A stretch of 38,088 nt of DNA from Blastocladiella britannica (Eukaryota > Blastocladiomycota > Blastocladiomycetes > Blastocladiales > Blastocladiaceae): assembly GCA_025349905.2 (NCBI GenBank), contig MU624632.1, forward strand, positions 1 through 38,088. The letters run 5' to 3'. Shown here in pieces: positions 22,205 through 31,350 of the stretch. Below the pieces are notes generated by a model, which saw only the letters and a list, made by a program, of their open reading frames with translations, did not search any database and was not told where the DNA came from. Position numbers and translations under genes: made by a program. Within the stretch, counting starts at the first letter, position 1, and every line of letters begins with the position of its first letter.

Positions 22205-22375
22205 GGTGGCGCCACTGTAAACGAGGGGCGCAACCTTTCCTAGGATTCATAAAGGTTTCCTGGGGTTCATAAATATAGTTTCCCAGGGTCCATAACCACC
22301 CTTCCTGGAGTTCATAACACACTTTCCTGGGGTCATAACCACATCCCACCGGCCGACCTCCACCGCCATAACTTA
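22205..22375 (+). repeat. Left terminal inverted repeat with tandem motif
   Basis: Starts GGTGGCGC, then five degenerate copies of TTTCCTGGGGTTCATAA at about 22235, 22255, 22278, 22301 and 22323, 20-25 bp apart, and CCTCCACCGCCATAA at the inner edge. Confidence 0.8.
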
Positions 22376-22989
22376 AATATATTTATTTATTCTGGACGAT
22401 ATTATAACATTCCCAAGCATCTTGAGAATGGTTTAGCCACCCACCGAGCATCCGTGGGCCTTTGCACATCATTTCCTGTCCTTGCACCCGGTGATCAGTG
22501 CCCCGCGTGCATTTCTTCGACTGTAGCCGCTTTTTAAATTTATATTGAATATATTTCACAACCGAGCGGCCCGCTCCTGTGCATTTTCTTTTTTTTGTGA
22601 TCTGTGGCAATCGAGTGAAGCCGATGCTGTGGGACTCGTCCAAGTACCGGCTGTTTTCGGCGGATAATCGCAGCGCAACAATGGAGAATGTCACGCGGCA
22701 CTGGCCTGGCGAATCGGCTGGTTTTACTCCACAGTAGCCATACGACGCGATCGAAAAGGATGGCCAGACAAACCCGAGGCTTGGCAAGAGCAATGGCGCG
22801 AGTGGTCGGTCAGGCATGGGCGGTGCGGATTTTTTGATATGAACAGGCCTGCTGCCACAGGTGCTTTCGTTGCGCGCACGTCGCTGCAGAGGGAATGGCA
22901 TGTGTTTTATTTATGAAAAAGGACACTCTTCTCTTGCACATATAACAAAGCGAGCAGCCCAACAAACTGCTCAATCGCACATCACCACC
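22376..22989. other. Transposon 5' region before the transposase ATG
   Basis: About 600 bp of mostly A/T-rich sequence, presumably transposase promoter and 5' UTR. A 172-codon open frame on the minus strand (22383-22901) has no recognisable domain or codon bias, and I do not call it a gene. Confidence 0.4.
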
Positions 22990-25900
22990 ATGGCCAAGGC
23001 CAAACCGACCAAACTTGCGATGGCCACTGGCATCACCGATACCTCGCAAAAAGCGACTGCCCACGCAAGACTGGGCGTCCGTCAGCGACAGAACGTGCCC
23101 GCCAAGCTCAAGCTTCTCTGGCTCACATCGAAACCGAGTCGACTCCTGCACCTCCTGCCTCCGTCACTGGCCCACTTGCCGGTGGAGCTGCAGGTCGAGA
23201 TCGGTCGGTTCCAGCTCTTATTATCCGATGCCCAGCTGGAATACTACGACAAGAACCAGCTTTACACCAGTGGCACGGTCGATGCGACGTTTGTAAAGAC
23301 GTTCCGGGGTTGCGATCCCCGTCTGCCTGATGGCTACTTTGCGATCGTCCTTGGTATGAATTGGTAGTTTAGATCAGGACCACTTACCCCAATATTCACA
23401 CATGTGTGCTGGAATAGCGCTCGGTGCAATCGCGTCTGCCAGTGCCGCACCTACCCTGGCGCCTGCTGGCCTCGCTCCTGCCAGCGCCCCTCCTGTAGCG
23501 CCTGTCTCTGCTGCTGTTGCTACCACCACTGTCCGTGCACTTAACATGCCAATTGTGCCACCCATTGAAACACTCGAATGCCCTCCTACGGACAAGAACC
23601 GGCTTGTTATCGTCCAGCAAGATCGGGCTACCATTACGGCCGAGAGCACAACTTCGATCAACTTTCAGAATTGCGGCCTCGAGCGGTATACGACACTTGA
23701 AGGCCAGCCCTTGTCCTTTGAGGGTTCTTACATTGCAGATCATGTCGTCGTATTCGAGATGCCACCTCAGGTCGTGCGCTACAGGGCATACCTGGACCAG
23801 GTGGCAGTAGCAACAGATGATCGTGACCGCGACGTCAACCCGCACCACATTCTTGCCTTTGGCCTTCGGCTCTTTGCGTGCGAAGAGGTGCTTTTGGGCC
23901 ACGAGGAGGAGTGTATTCTCAAGAAGGGGCCGTTGGTCGATCCGGTGGTGCTTTTCAGTGCCACGTACAAGTGCCCTGGTTTCGTCGACCACTGTACCAT
24001 CCGCAACGGGTTTGTCCATGACTTTGATGGGTACCGGGACTCGGTAGATGAGAAACACCGCAGAAACGGCAAGTCGGGGACGAGGAGGGATGATCATTAT
24101 TATTGCAACACCATGTGCGACACTCAGGTCAAGGTATTGTACTTTTTTCACTATTTGTATTCCTTTGTGTTTCCTCACGTTCTCATGGACCAGTTCATTG
24201 TGCTCCGCCACCACTTCACGCCGATGGCTCATGATACGTCCATTATGCAAGCAACGAGCTGTCTTGTCGTGTTTAACAAAGGAGAACCCCATGGGTTTAA
24301 GGCCGGCAGTCATCAGATTGGCGATTCTCCTGCATTGGTTGCTACACGCCGAATGGCTGTTGTTGCACCTGGTGGTAAGCGTGCTGAGCTTGAAAACTGT
24401 ATGTTATTCATCAGTCTTACCTTCCCTTGGCTCTATCTCACACTTGTTTTGTCCTTGTAGCACTTGCCATCACTGCGCATGCTGTTGGTGCTCCCCCACC
24501 CAACCATAGCAGCAAGTCGACTCTGGCTGCATTCACTCTTGCAAAAAAGCGTGGAGGCAAAACAATCGCGCCTGCATATAGCGAACTCGTTCCTGTGCCA
24601 ACTGCCATCGTGGGTCCGATCGCATTGGATGAGCAAGTTGCCGACTACTTGGTTTCCAAGGATGTGCTTGGTCTTGTCAGCCACATGGACCGCGAAAAGG
24701 GTACCTTTATCCTGATTGACCCCTTCCAGGCAGCGTTCATTGCACGCAATTCGGCCAAATCGGTCGTGGGCATGGACTCCTGTCATCGGCACAAGTGCAC
24801 TGGCGAGCGGCCACTGACCGTCCTTGCGATTCGCCGCCCTGGGGACCTGTACGTTTCTCCTCGTTTCTCTTTTTTCATCTCCATGACAGATGGTTGCTCT
24901 TGTCTTCCAGTCGGTCCATTCCTGTTGCAGTTATGCTCTCCCCACAGATCAACACGGAGACATACACAATGTTTTGCAAATGGTCAAGCAGTCTGCTTGG
25001 CGCCTGGTTACAACTGCCATCACGAGCCAGCTCCCAATTGACTACTTTGGTGATGGCCAGACTGCAAAGGTGTGTATACTTTAGTTTGTGGGTCTCGAGT
25101 TAGCATTTTCCCACTGACAACACGATTTATGCCCAGCTCTTTGAGGTCGGCAAGCGAGTGAAGGTTGGCTCGCATCTGACGGAAGAAGAAACGCACGCGA
25201 TTGTTCTGGAAGGTACACACTCTTTTCCTCGTATTTTATTTTCATCCTGTGCTCAATTTGGTGTGAAATAGTACTTGGGGTCGGTGATCCGTTTTCACCA
25301 ATGGTATTCACGATTGACAAGGCTCCAGCTGAGCGTGCAGCGATCCGGGCAGGTATGATCTCCTTTTTCGCTCTCTTGCCACCACACAAATACCACTACT
25401 GACCCACTAGCTGATCAATCCAAGTGTTTGGTGAAAAGCAGCCCATCAAATTGTGCGAGTTCCATGTAGCACAGGCGCTTCTTCGCTGGTTCAAAGGGGT
25501 CGTTCCCCCAGAGGTGGCCCAGGCAATCAGTTTCGACTTTCGGTGCACATTTGTTTCGCGCACATACACCGAATTTGCAGCAGCACACACAACGTTCGTC
25601 AATGCGGTTTCGGCAAGGATTTCCTCAGGGAGTGTGCGGATGAAAGTCCTCAAGTACTTCCAAGTGAACTGGTTTTCAAAGACCTGGCTTCGTACGCTCT
25701 TGATCGAATTATTTGACCTCATGCACTTGAGTCTCACTTTTCTTTTCTTTGCAGCATACCTCCTTGATGCTGGCATGCCTGAGTCCCTCCCGCGCAACGA
25801 TTTCGGCACCAACAACATGCTCGAGACGCTCTTCCGTGCGTTTGACACCATGATTCTTCGGTATGGACTTTTTTTTTTTTTTTTTTTTTTTTTGGCAAGT

Positions 25901-28853
25901 TATAGATCCGCATGAATTGATTCATTCCTTCACTCCCAATGTAGTAACACGGTGAATCGCCATGTCATTGGACTCCTCGAAAAGCTCGTGGTGGACTGGA
26001 TCCCGCACTATGTTGCAGTGATCAAAGCTGGGCCATCGCCCTATCTAGGTCGCGAGCAGACACGGCGGTGGCGCGCATTAGCTCGTGGTGCTGAGGTCCT
26101 TGCGCACAAAGTCAGCACCAGCCTTGGCTCGCAAGACGCCTATGTTGTTCCGCGGTCACCATCGACACTGACCAAATTTGTGCGTGTCGATTTCTTGACT
26201 CCGCCACCAAGGTGCAGCTGCAGCGACTTTGAACTATTTGGCCGCACTTGTGAGCATATCCTGGCGGTAGCAATGTGGAGCACGTCAGGCAGCAAACCAC
26301 CGGCCCCTGGCTCCAATGACGAGCTCTCAGAGTGGACACAGCAGGCCTTTGCTGTTGAAACTCGTGCTGCTGCTGCTGACAATGGTGCCGACAACATAGA
26401 CGACGATGGTGGCGCTGGCACTGGCGGCGTGGATGGTGACGGCGGCCCTGGCGCTGGTGACATGGATGACGATGGCGCCAGCAACATCGACATTCCAAGC
26501 TGGGCCGCCTGCGTTGAGTTGCATATCACACCCGAGGAGCACGGAACTGACACACTGGAAGCGCCTGTCACGCCGACCAAGTCTCGCACCCCTGGCCCAG
26601 CTGCAGCAACGAAAAGCACTCGACGTGGTCGAATCGAGGGTACATCAGCCATCCAATCGGCACCAGCGTGCAAGCGCAACCGCCACCACATAACTCCAAC
26701 GCCGACGGCTGCAAGGACGCCAACTGTACAAACGGCGGCCAAACACCAAGCACGGAAGCATCTGGATCAGCCCGGCCCGCCCATCGATTTGAGCAGCGAC
26801 ACAGATTTCGATATCATTGCGCCTGCTTCACCAGGGCCTCAGCGCAAGCGACTGCGTGTTGCACCTCCGATTCTTGAGCACTTTGGCTACAAGTTCCACC
26901 TGGTATACGACTCCGTCATCCGCAATACCATCTGGTCGCCATACCGCGTAGACCCTGCCAAGGATGCACCAGTCGATCCAGACGTGGCCAACAACCCCCA
27001 GTACATTCCACTTTCGCACCGGCAGGTCAAGATTCGTGGGCCGACCAACTTCGCATGCCTCAACGTGGACCAATTGCCATGCTTTTCGTCGGCAAATACC
27101 AATGGGTGCCAAGTTCATTATCGCAACGCGTGTGCAGTCAATGCTGTGGCAATGGCGCTCACACATGTGCTGCCTTCCGAGCCACATCTCAAAGTGGATC
27201 GCCCGTACCTGACTGACGCGCCGGTAGCTCAACCGCTTTTTCCATTTTTGTCACCAGATCATGTGGAGTCGTACTCTGGCCACGGCGGATTCATCATTGG
27301 ATTTGGAGCGCTCCAGTGCATGGTCAACGACGTCAACGACGACGTGAGGTGGGGCCTTGGACCGTTACTTGTGGCCAACATGCTCGCGATCGCGAACCGT
27401 GAGTACGGTGAGGATTTCTTTGGCAGTTCTGACAAGGTATGATTTTTTTTTTAAATATTATTTTCCTTCATTTATTGGCTCACGGTTAATTTAATTCAAC
27501 AGAATCCATCTGCTGCACTGGTCGAGCTTTGGGCAAAGCGGCTTGTAGAACGTGTGGCAGCCGCAGCCAAGCAGCCAGTCCCAAAGCCACCTGTCATTGA
27601 GGTACCCGAGCAACTGGAGCTGACCCCGCCTGTCATTCAGACCTTCGATTGGCGAGCCGATGTGCCACGCATGCTTACGGTTCTTGCATCAAGAGTGGAC
27701 GCAGAGCGCGAAATTCTGGACGATGTCCGGACTCTTTTCACGTTCGTGATGATTGGCACCTCGACTGGTTGTTCGAACCCGCAATGTCAGCCCAAGGGCA
27801 ACTGGAACCACGACACACAGGCCTGAGCGTTTCAACTTTCCGGATGTCCAGTCTGGAATCCCGTGTGGACGTTGAAGCCGACACTTTCCAGGCCTTGAAT
27901 TATTTGGGCACTGGGGCGCGCCACGACTCGTACTACCGTGCTCCCACGAAATGCCCTTTCAGATGCGCAGTGTGCAGTCCTGCCCCAGTCAGATTGTCGG
28001 ACTCTGACACTGACGGTGGCGGCATTGAGGGCACAAAGCGGTTGACCCGGACGGCCACTGCTCGGCTTGAATGCGAGGCGCCTGCTGCCGCCCCTGCCCG
28101 CGTTGCTGGCATTGTTGCTGCCGAGACGCTCCTTGTACTTGGCGCCCCGCCACCATCATCACCACTGCCACCAGCACTTCCTTGCGACTGCATTAGCTGG
28201 CCAGAGACCATGTGCGTTTACTCTTGCCCATTTTATTCTCTTTTATGGCCTGCCGCCAACTCCACCATTTATATCTCATGTTTTTCGATGACACGACAGG
28301 CGATCGGCATGCCCTAAAGACGACCCGCACATTTGTAATGGCCGTCGCAATTTCTGTGTCAAATGGGACAAGGTCCCCATGTTTCTCCGCGTGGAAATCT
28401 ACTGGGACAAATTTCAGCCAACTCTCTCGGCTGGGTTCAGCGCCGAAGGGTACGTCGTCCTATATGAGCGCCTTCATGAGTGGCTGGGCATTTGGCTGAC
28501 TCGAGGTCGTCGTAGGTTTCGGTTCTTCCCAGTGGCAATATTTTGGATTTCCAAAAAAAAACCTCCCGCCCTCATTGCGGCACTACGTGACCACCTTTCG
28601 CCGGTGCAAGAACAAGCAATTCCTGGCCAAAGGTGACGACGGCTTCTCTCGGTCTTGGTTCGCCAGCGACGACACGATGGTCGACCTGCGCAAGAATATC
28701 AAGATCCCCGCTGATTATCCTGAGTCGTCTCCCGTTCTGGAGCTCGATGCAGAGAAGTTCATGCGAGACGTCTTTGTCAAGGGCCGATTCCCGGTGGGCA
28801 TGGTACCGCGTGAAATCTGGTATGCCGTCGAGAAGACAACCACGAGCCGGTAG
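22990..28853 (+). CDS. MULE transposase-SWIM-USP-like deubiquitinase fusion, with frame breaks
   Basis: Exons: 22990-23353, 23418-24133, 24194-24398, 24461-24848, 24911-25069, 25137-25212, 25272-25352, 25425-25691, 25755-25860, 25945-27436, 27503 to ~27757 or beyond, a block ending at 28211, 28300-28449 and 28516-28853. The N-terminal half has Cys/His clusters that may bind DNA (YKCPGFVDHC; YYCNTMC with HH). MULE DDE core: VVGMDSCHRHK (first Asp), PVAVMLSPQINTETYTMF, VFTIDKAPAERAAI (second Asp), then LCEFHVAQALLRW. SWIM zinc finger CSCSDFELFGRTCEH is at 26213-26257. The same exon has a SUMO-interacting-like PIDLSSDTD (~26780) and a USP Cys box, RNACAVNAVAMAL (Cys codon 27131-27133). Further on are CPFRCAVC, KVPMFLRVEIYW and a His box, RHYVTTFR then SWFASDD (His codon 28581-28583). 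The frame breaks near 24978 and 28553; 27757-27826 is ambiguous. Family calls are strong; activity is uncertain. Confidence 0.8.
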
Positions 28854-29187
28854 CGGGTTTGGTAGTTGAATATAATTATGTGTGCACTATAATAATGGCG
28901 AAAAAATCAGGGTAAAAGGGTTCAGCCGGTTCGGGCATGGCATGATCGCGGACAAAAAGGAGCCCGGACAGGTTTGGCAAGGGCTAGAAAACAATGGGGT
29001 TGTTGATCCAGAGAAAGTTAGCACGGCCAGGCGCCGGGAACGCCATAGCGGTGCTGGCGGTCGCGGTATAACGAAAATAATACTGTAGTGGGGCCGCGCG
29101 GCCAGTGGTGGTGAAGAACGGCAGGGTGGACAAGTGTTGTTGGCACTGACGGTATGAACGTCACCCGGACAGGGCCGTCGGCTCGAT
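28854..29187. other. Transposon 3' region after the transposase stop
   Basis: About 330 bp between the transposase TAG and the right inverted repeat, G-rich near 29090-29160. No gene or poly(A) hexamer is obvious. Confidence 0.4.
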
Positions 29188-29412
29188 ATTTTATGGCGGT
29201 GGTGGTGGCGGGCGACGAATATAGCAATGGCGGGGTGCCAGGCCGGGTAGGATGATGAGCCCTGGGGAAGGCCGATGGCCCCCAGGAAAGTCGAGAAGTG
29301 CACTATTATGAGTCCTGGTAAAGTGAGTTTATGAGTCCTGGGATGGAGGTTATGAACCTCAGGAAACGGTTTTGAGTCCCAGGAAAGGAATTTTCCGTAA
29401 ACGAGCGCCACC
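29188..29412 (-). repeat. Right terminal inverted repeat with tandem motif
   Basis: Read on the minus strand it starts GGTGGCGC, then about six degenerate TTTCCTGGGGTTCATAA-type copies (CTTTCCTGGGACTCAAAA, GTTTCCTGAGGTTCATAA, ATCCCAGGACTCATAA and others) down to about 29255, and CCACCACCGCCATAA at 29190-29205. It mirrors the left repeat. Confidence 0.8.
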
Positions 29413-29437
29413 CAAAATACTTTCCCCACATTTTGAA

Positions 29438-31350
29438 ATGTCAAACAATATTGCAGAGCTACTGCCCGAGCTCCTGACCGCCACGCGCCCGCTCCGGCCG
29501 CTCCTTGCCGCCGCCGCCGTCGCCGCCCTGCTGGCCCACTTTTACGTGCGCCATGTACTCCTGCCGGCGCCACTGCGTGGTCTGCCGTACCTAGGTCCGC
29601 CAACCATCTTACGCCTGGCGGCGGCGCGCATGCCGTACCTCGATTTCTTCAAGGCACAGATGGACGCACTGCAGCGCATGGCGGTCCAGTTGGGCGCCAT
29701 CGCCAACGCGACCGACACCCCGGCCGCGTGGTGCACTTGGGTGTTTGGGTCGCACATTGTCATGATTGCCAACCCAGAGGACGCGCGCGCGGCCGTGGTC
29801 GGGTCCGAGGAGTCGTTGCCGCTGCGCCGCGTCACCTGGGGCGAGCTGGGACTGAAGACGCATGAGGCGCTCATGGGCAATAGCCTCGTGACCACTATGT
29901 ATCGCTAACTCTATTGGGTTGGACACGGACACAGTGACTGACTGGTATTGTAACAGGGGAGTACCGTGGAAAAAGCACCATGGGGTCCTGCTGCCATCGT
30001 TCCGGCGCGGGTTCCCAGCCGATCTGTTTGCGCCGCCGTCGCGACAGCTGCTGGCGCACTTTGACGCGCACGCGGTCGCCGGATCGACCGTGGACGTCGA
30101 CGACTACATGCAGCGGCTGACTCTGGACGCGCTGTCCGGGATCCTGTTTGCGTCGTCGTTCGATGCCATCAACAAGCCCAACTCGCACATGCTGACGCTG
30201 TACAACGACGTGCGTGCGTTCCTGTTTCATCCCGTGTACACGGCTCTGGGCACCCTGGCCGCGTACACGCCCGCGGGTCGCCGCGCCCGGGCCAAGGTCC
30301 ACGCGTTTAGCCAGTGCCTCAAGGATCTCGTGACGGAGCGCGCGGCCGAAATGCAGGAGCGCCGCAAGAACGGGACCGAGGCACCGGTGGATGGACGCGA
30401 CTTGCTCGAGCGCATGATCGAGGCGTCCGAGGCGGGGCTCATGTCGGACGAGGAGATTCGGTCCAACATGGTCGGCTTCTTTGTTGCGGTATCGTATCTT
30501 TTTTCGTTTTTTTGCTTGGTTTCCATGACCTCATCCTTGGAAAAAATATACATTAGGGACACGATACCACTGCAACGACCCTCACGTACGCCATTTACAT
30601 GCTCGGGTACCACAAGGACATCCAAGACAAGGCGCGTGCGGAGGCTCTGGCTTTGATGGGCACCAGATCCGTGGATGTGTCCAACGCCCAGGGCGCCGAG
30701 CATGCCATTTACCCGACCAACGACCAGGCTAACAAATTGACATATCTGACGATGGTCATCAAGTACGTTTGCCCTTTCCCTTTTTCGTGAATGTGTAACT
30801 GACAGCCAAAACCAGAGAGACGATGCGGCTGTTCCCAGCCGTGAACGCGCTCCCGTTCCGACGGGCATCGCGCGACGTGAAGCTTTCGACGGGCCATGTG
30901 ATCCCGCGCGGCACCGTGGTGTCGATCCACATTTTGGCCATGCAGCGCGCCAAGCAGTTTTACGGCGAGGATGCTGACACGTTCCGTCCCGAGCGGTGGG
31001 CCAAGCCGGCGACGGCAGCGACCGCCAGCCAGGCAACGGCAATAGCAGCGGACGAGGAGGACGAGCAGTTGACGGCGGCCACCGAAGGCACCGCGGTCCC
31101 ACTATCGGCGTCGGCCAACGGTTACATGTGGATGCCGTTCTCGGCTGGGCCGCACGCGTGCATTGGCCAGCAATTTTCGATCACGGAGCAGCGCGTGTTG
31201 CTAGCCATGATGCTGGCGCGGTACGAGTGGGATATTATGGGAGACGAGCATGCCCTGGCGGGGAAGCCGCTGAGTCGGCGCGGCATGTTGCTTCACCCCG
31301 AGGGAATTCATGTTGTGTTTCGCCGTCGCGGGGCCGCGCGTGAGGAGTAA
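29438..31350 (+). CDS. Cytochrome P450 monooxygenase
   Basis: Four exons: 29438-29898, 29957-30488, 30557-30762 and 30816-31350 (introns 58, 68 and 53 nt); 577 residues. An N-terminal membrane anchor (~residues 18-42) indicates a microsomal protein. Helix C is VPWKKHHGVLLPSF; the oxygen-binding I-helix motif AGHDTT spans the second splice junction; the K-helix ExxR is ETMR; PERF-type segment TFRPERW; the heme loop FSAGPHACIGQQF has the cysteine thiolate ligand (codon near 31158). An acidic insert (ADEEDEQLTAATEG) lies between PERW and the heme loop. The substrate is unknown; I cannot assign a CYP family. The ATG is only 25 bp from the end of the upstream transposon, so the original promoter is displaced or replaced. 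A b5-reductase gene follows 67 bp downstream. Confidence 0.94.

Follow-up and report, generated by a model that had tools for sequence, protein, structure and literature searches.

The Blastocladiella britannica DNA analyzed here (38,088 nucleotides, positions 1 to 38,088 of contig MU624632.1, hereafter the window) contains a 7171-bp element for which the evidence supports the assignment to the Mutator-type DNA transposons, with one gene encoding one fused protein. In this protein a DDE transposase core and a SWIM zinc finger are followed by a C-terminal region that, judging from its ordered sequence motifs, is quite probably a cysteine deubiquitinase candidate resembling the ubiquitin-specific proteases (USPs). 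We further lean toward the proposal that a separate lineage of Mutator-like elements (MULEs) acquired a USP-type deubiquitinase, remodeled it and retained it as a fusion with the transposase, in which case the removal of ubiquitin would belong to the working transposition cycle. The remodeling would consist of a long insert after the finger and of the clusters C-x4-C and C-x3-C-x2-C, the fusion would have been kept while two copies in this genome diverged until, linker and insert aside, they shared 39-64% identity, and the outcome would be a convergent answer to the OTU, Ulp1, and VTD domains of other transposons.

The element and its transposase

The genome searched comprises 15.26 Mb in 624 contigs, the window being contig C93. 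The element is placed at 22226-29396 because a perfect 9-bp target-site duplication (TSD), GTAAACGAG, flanks its terminal inverted repeats (TIRs) directly (Table 1), and this is the sole 9-mer common to the two flanks (60 and 65 bases compared). Inverted repeats were detected at 22234-22343 and 29324-29388. According to a table in PMC6446971, Mutator TSDs are usually 8-11 bp long and mostly 9 bp, and the TSDs found here are 9 bp in the window copy and 9 to 11 bp (CCGGTATTTGT) in a second copy on contig C16; the TIRs measure about 110 bp in the former and 110 bp, identical at 109 of 110 places, in the latter. Between the TIRs lies one gene on the plus strand, from an ATG at 22990 to a stop codon ending at 28853, whose 13 exons were placed by hand from splice signals and comparison with C16. 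Read with X at its frame breaks, the protein has 1681 residues and runs from a Cys/His-rich N-terminus through the DDE core, SWIM finger, and linker to the C-terminal region with its Cys and His boxes.

The SWIM finger matches PF04434 with 28.5 bits against a cut-off of 19.6 in the window copy and with an E value of 4.5e-5 in C16. The DDE core matches Pfam MULE (PF10551) weakly in C16 (E 0.0061, 17.4 bits, under the cut-off of 27.6), and no match to that family was obtained among the single window exons or in the six-frame translation of the genome. The motifs DSCHRHK, FTIDK, LCEFH..QAL, and TNNMLETLF nevertheless occur in order and supply the likely D, D, C-x2-H, and E of a MULE-type DDE core. 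The N-terminal domain of about 300 residues (window 23418-24398, exons 2-3 in C16) has no Pfam match, and its conserved Cys and His residues (Y.CPG.V.HC, YC, MC, HFT) possibly indicate a resemblance to DNA-binding domains of the WRKY-GCM1/FLYWCH type. A first-pass annotation of the window had already described one gene in a TIR-bounded, Mutator-type element at 22990-28853; its coordinates hold, and the TSD, TIRs, SWIM finger, DDE motifs, and a second and third copy bear out the class.

The C-terminal region as a probable USP-like domain

The window copy and C16 have in common NACAV, C-x4-C, C-x3-C-x2-C, HY, and SRSWF-x2-DDT. The USP Cys box, N-x-C-x-x-N/D, is present as NACAVN and NACAVD in the two copies, and the USP His box, HY followed by W..(D/N)D, as HYVTTFR...WFASDD in the window and HYMCTFR...WFITDD in C16, so that the first-pass description of an N-x-C-x-x-N box followed by a His box, which lies in exon 13, stands. 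A stretch that fits the USP Q-x-D-x-x-E box, expected between Cys box and finger, occurs in C16 (WQADVSELL), and its counterpart in the window (WRADVPRML) lacks the Q and the E. As candidates for the two CxxC pairs of the USP finger, both copies keep the clusters C-x4-C and C-x3-C-x2-C, which are not plain CxxC pairs.

Because library searches leave the domain unnamed, we scanned for USP boxes in order, using profiles cut by script from 15 of the 20 USP loci excised from this genome (rows: Cys 5, Q-D-A 11, PxxL 8, YxL 10, HY 10, of which one, from locus L028, is probably in a wrong frame, and W..DD 8). The alignment of the two copies scores 12.4, compared with -29.0 when reversed and -4.8 for the rest of the protein. 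None of 2000 shuffles by column (mean -25.1, highest -5.0) and none of 1000 by block (mean -17.7, highest 5.1) attains this score. The best path places Cys on NACAV, Q-D-A on WQADVSELL/WRADVPRML, HY on LQHY/LRHY, and W..DD on WFITDD/WFASDD. The same four boxes were chosen in an earlier scan with hand-typed, faulty host boxes, in which the observed score was reached by none of 400 and none of 200 shuffles, and by 0/1500 and 0/700 when six boxes were used.

Several results weigh against a USP assignment. Of the six boxes, two give negative scores and are placed at unlikely positions, namely PxxL...RF and YxL, with VPRILRV and FRFVPVAIFW as candidates picked out only by eye. Scores from 58.9 to 204.7, well in excess of 12.4, are obtained for 13 of the 15 host USP loci, and the remaining pair score -0.5 and 11.3; the profiles had themselves been built from most of these loci. 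With the earlier boxes, the single full-length copies score 24.5 and 16.3 and stay below the highest score among the 300 shuffles of each (25.8 and 31.0, respectively); loci of the OTU and Ulp1 type score as high as 10.1, and 144 unsorted decoy stretches, which included the element's own frames from the window, reached 36.9, above both copies. Neither copy has a listed match to Pfam UCH (PF00443) or UCH_1 up to an E value of 10, a range in which the HMMER filters drop most matches above E of about 0.1, and hence we term the domain USP-like and do not file it under peptidase family C19. The element is likewise absent from the genome matches of PF00443 (27), PF13423 (12), OTU (2), and C48 (5). 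A profile search of the PDB returned a sole match, to a non-protease, at E 0.21, an NCBIfam search with five exon pieces gave nothing informative, and a hidden Markov model of the host USPs matched C16 at E 0.06 and the window copy not at all. The hhalign comparison is not significant (probability 2.1%, P 0.022; second match P 0.53), and what it aligns is Cys box with Cys box and, secondly, WQADVSELL with the Q-D-A box. Single-sequence AlphaFold models of two pieces have mean predicted local distance difference test (pLDDT) values of 40.4 and 34.8, too low for any fold to be read from them. Thus, of the USP identity put forward in the first-pass annotation, the ordered boxes and the lack of OTU, Ulp1, and VTD signatures speak for it, and Pfam, hhalign, and structure prediction do not.

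Given that profile methods fall short of USP, the domain might belong to another class of papain-like cysteine protease (OTU, VTD, MINDY, or one as yet undescribed), which would leave the fusion and its use unchanged; we regard this as unlikely, and yet as the most serious competitor. OTU domains are known in the MULE group MuDR-6_HM, in Ginger, and in Helitrons, and VTD domains in Helitrons, and the stretch WG.GP.LVANM is reminiscent of an OTU feature. However, OTU (PF02338) is rejected, as there is no Pfam match at E up to 10 and the Cys lies in YRNAC/YSNAC without the D-x-x-C seen as DDNSC in a host OTU-match locus. VTD is rejected as well, with LRH and LQH in place of the Asp-x-His by which PMC9741609 defines that class. 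Moreover, the Q-D-A-like box ahead of the Cys pairs and the W..DD after the His are USP features. MINDY was checked by Pfam alone. Ulp1 (peptidase C48) is rejected on the order of its boxes, His, Asp, Cys, whereas here the Cys box precedes the His box, and on the lack of a Pfam C48 match.

It is improbable that the region is a conserved non-protease part of the transposase, binding DNA or zinc, with coincidental boxes. The lack of a significant library match, the box scores of single sequences, which lie within those of shuffles, and the Cys pairs, which could bind zinc for other reasons, would all fit such a part; the ordered boxes of the two-copy alignment, however, beat 3000 of 3000 shuffles, and the candidate triad residues are retained in every copy that holds them.

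The fusion in this and other copies

Exon 10 is open throughout (open reading frame 25916-27442, 508 residues) and carries the Cys box NACAVNAVAMAL about 290 residues after the SWIM finger in the same frame, as the first-pass annotation had said in arguing that no splice guess is involved. On the minus strand of C16, exons 2 to 13 lie at 29057-23371 with the order from N-terminus to His box unchanged; window exons match there with E values of 8.6e-45 to 2.5e-14, and the gene was modeled by hand with the window copy as guide. For nine of the 11 introns between exon 2 and exon 13, the models of the two copies agree in position and show GT-AG ends. In a third copy, on contig C208 (10739-12221; stretch L011 6739-8192), an internal deletion removed the SWIM finger and Cys box, so that DDE exon 9 runs directly into the His-box exon; stops are also present, and the His box remains as HYTCTFR...WFASDD with a stop between its parts. 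All such counts are lower bounds, as the protein searches of the genome scored the best candidates only. The candidate catalytic Cys is kept in both copies holding that region, and the His and Asp-Asp in all three. The one open exon, the whole order in C16, and the His box in C208 together suggest that the fusion is ancestral and has been maintained, and is no product of a splice guess. Scans of viral and prokaryote contigs for relatives outside this genome gave pattern matches, none of which encodes a relative. A fourth relative is represented by a 45-residue remnant of its DDE core at the end of contig C265 (stretch L061 4297-4431).

Three details of the C16 model count against the fusion as we draw it, namely a TAG in the linker between the SWIM finger and Cys box, the missing GT donor of intron 10/11, whose position is kept, and the different placing of intron 11/12 in the two models; even so, and with all 13 exons hand-placed from genomic DNA alone, separate transposase and protease genes joined by a wrong gene model are rejected as very improbable, since both copies that hold the region carry SWIM finger and Cys box in a single exon, everything lies inside a single TSD-flanked element, and the C208 deletion places the His-box exon directly after DDE exon 9. 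The refuting result named in the first-pass annotation, transposase and protease regions as separate genes in related elements, did not appear in these copies.

Identity between the window copy and C16 is 39% in the N-terminal domain, 53% from DDE to SWIM, 64% in SWIM, 30% in the linker, 42% in the Cys part, 50% in the Q-D-A part, 33% in the insert after the finger, and 53% in the C-terminal part. Differences at codon positions 1/2/3 amount to 0.47/0.33/0.60 in the Cys part, 0.43/0.26/0.74 in the Q-D-A part, 0.39/0.31/0.57 in the C-terminal part, 0.36/0.26/0.53 in DDE, and 0.48/0.46/0.64 in the linker, where the contrast is smallest. As third positions diverge more than second positions in all eight protein parts, the protease-like parts appear to have been under protein-level selection, as the transposase was.

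The window copy itself no longer encodes an unbroken protein. Its reading frame shifts in exon 5 (near 24966-24971), in exon 11 (near 27826), and within the A9 run of exon 13 (28553-28561), which speaks against a functional fusion in this copy, and because of these three changes it is probably a pseudogene, unless the breaks are assembly errors. C16, with its TIRs identical at all but one place and CCGGTATTTGT on both sides, probably moved more recently.

Proposed function, known systems and feature positions

We propose that the C-terminal region would adopt the papain-like fold of a USP, including a zinc-binding finger, and would deubiquitinate proteins in the vicinity of the transposase. 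Most likely it would serve to free the transposase, or the complex it forms part of, of ubiquitin, by which this large protein would escape the proteasome; the next likeliest would be ubiquitin removal from chromatin or repair factors at sites of excision and insertion. The same idea of protection is proposed for Helitron VTDs in PMC9741609, and roles in repair after transposition are proposed in PMC2836005.

The first-pass annotation named MULEs with Ulp1-type proteases, as in Kaonashi. Mutator elements with Ulp1 (C48) domains are described from hydra, lancelet, and plants in PMC2836005. They share with the present element the combination of a Mutator transposon and a protease that acts on a ubiquitin-like modifier, and differ from it in the order of His and Cys. 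The cnidarian group MuDR-6_HM, in the table of PMC6446971, likewise combines a MULE with a deubiquitinase-class domain, which is however OTU and not USP-like, and no zinc finger is listed there for the group. Trichomonas XP_001314237.1, given in PMC2836005 as a Transposase_11 with Peptidase C19, also unites a transposase and a USP-class peptidase; its transposase is not of the Mutator type, and the comparison is with its published description only. Helitrons with VTD or OTU domains and Ginger1 with OTU or Ulp1 domains, as given in PMC9741609 and PMC2836005, also join deubiquitinase-class domains to transposon proteins, but with different transposase and protease classes, the VTD using Asp-x-His; one Helitron VTD is reported there to be enzymatically active (PMC9741609).

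The pairing of a transposase with C19 is therefore already known, from another superfamily, and it is the pairing of Mutator with a USP-like domain that we did not find reported. The table of MULE groups in PMC6446971, numbered to 50, names OTU for one group and SET for another and no USP, and the words ubiquitin, peptidase, and protease are absent from the main text of that paper; its silence is weak evidence, because Ulp1 also goes unmentioned although Mutator elements with Ulp1 are in print. No MULE with a USP domain was found among the papers listed in searches of openly licensed literature, Repbase not being covered. The novelty suggested in the first-pass annotation is thus supported in part.

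Several transposons that are not related to one another each combine their machinery with a protease directed at ubiquitin or a ubiquitin-like modifier (OTU, Ulp1, VTD, C19). To this pattern a Mutator lineage with a USP-like domain would contribute a further pairing, here within the transposase polypeptide itself. Such repeated pairings suggest that hosts may use ubiquitin to restrain transposition proteins and that transposons may respond by removing it.

Table 1. Positions of the element's features in the window.
Feature	Position	Strand	Basis
TSD, left copy, GTAAACGAG	22217-22225	.	exact 9-mer, directly outside TIRs, identical to 29397-29405
Left TIR, about 110 bp, internal repeats of about 20 bp	22226-22332	+	three inverted repeats; local alignment 22234 to 22332
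Exon 1, start codon at 22990	22990-23353	+	gene model
Exon 2, conserved N-terminal domain	23418-24133	+	gene model; 38% identity to C16, E 2.3e-35
Exon 3, end of N-terminal domain	24194-24398	+	gene model, C16 comparison
Exon 4, DDE core start; likely first D in GMDSCHRHK, codon 24775-24777	24461-24848	+	gene model, C16 comparison
Exon 5, DDE core, frame break	24911-25069	+	three frames versus C16
Exons 6 and 7 (25137-25212, 25272-25352); likely second D in FTIDKAPAERAAI	25137-25352	+	gene model, C16 comparison
Exon 8, LCEFHVAQAL (C-x2-H)	25425-25691	+	gene model, C16 comparison
Exon 9, TNNMLETLFRAFDTMIL, likely catalytic E	25755-25860	+	gene model, C16 comparison
Exon 10, SWIM, linker, and Cys-box part of protease-like domain, single open frame	25945-27436	+	list of open reading frames, Pfam, gene model
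SWIM zinc finger CSCS...CEH	26183-26272	+	PF04434, E 1.1e-6
Cys box VHYRNACAVNAVAMALTHVL, candidate catalytic Cys codon 27131-27133	27113-27172	+	kept in C16; picked by box scan
Exon 11, frame break	27503-28211	+	gene model, C16 comparison
Exon 11: Q-D-A-like box; CSNPQC; second Cys cluster	27650-27709; 27770-27787; 27952-27975	+	box scan, C16 comparison
Exon 12, GRRNFCVKWDKVPMFLRVEIYW	28300-28449	+	gene model, C16 and C208 comparison
Exon 13, His box, stop codon 28851-28853, frame break in A9 run	28516-28853	+	gene model, copies, box scan
Exon 13: LRHYVTTFR, His codon; WFASDD	28581-28583 (His codon); 28656-28673	+	gene model, copies, box scan
Right TIR	29280-29396	-	inverted-repeat detection, local alignment
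TSD, right copy, GTAAACGAG	29397-29405	.	32 bp upstream of ATG at 29438

The TIRs of the window copy and of C16 (22940-23054 and 30159-30271) are both made of repeats of about 20 bp, and the repeat unit is not alike between the two copies despite their homologous proteins. In DNA searches of the genome, the C16 TIR matched just the two C16 ends and the window TIR just the window's left end; since the window's own right end was missed, such a search overlooks diverged TIRs.

Mutator elements usually insert near the 5' ends of genes. The window element lies 32 bp 5' of the ATG at 29438 (window 29397-29438), which opens a gene with a cytochrome P450 match in its next exon. The open reading frame that begins at this ATG (29438-29908) gave no match in a domain search, and that at 29892-30653 matches PF00067 with an E value of 6.3e-12. 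The C16 element lies 62 bp 5' of the ATG of an EcKL/APH-like kinase gene (stretch L004 2867-2940).

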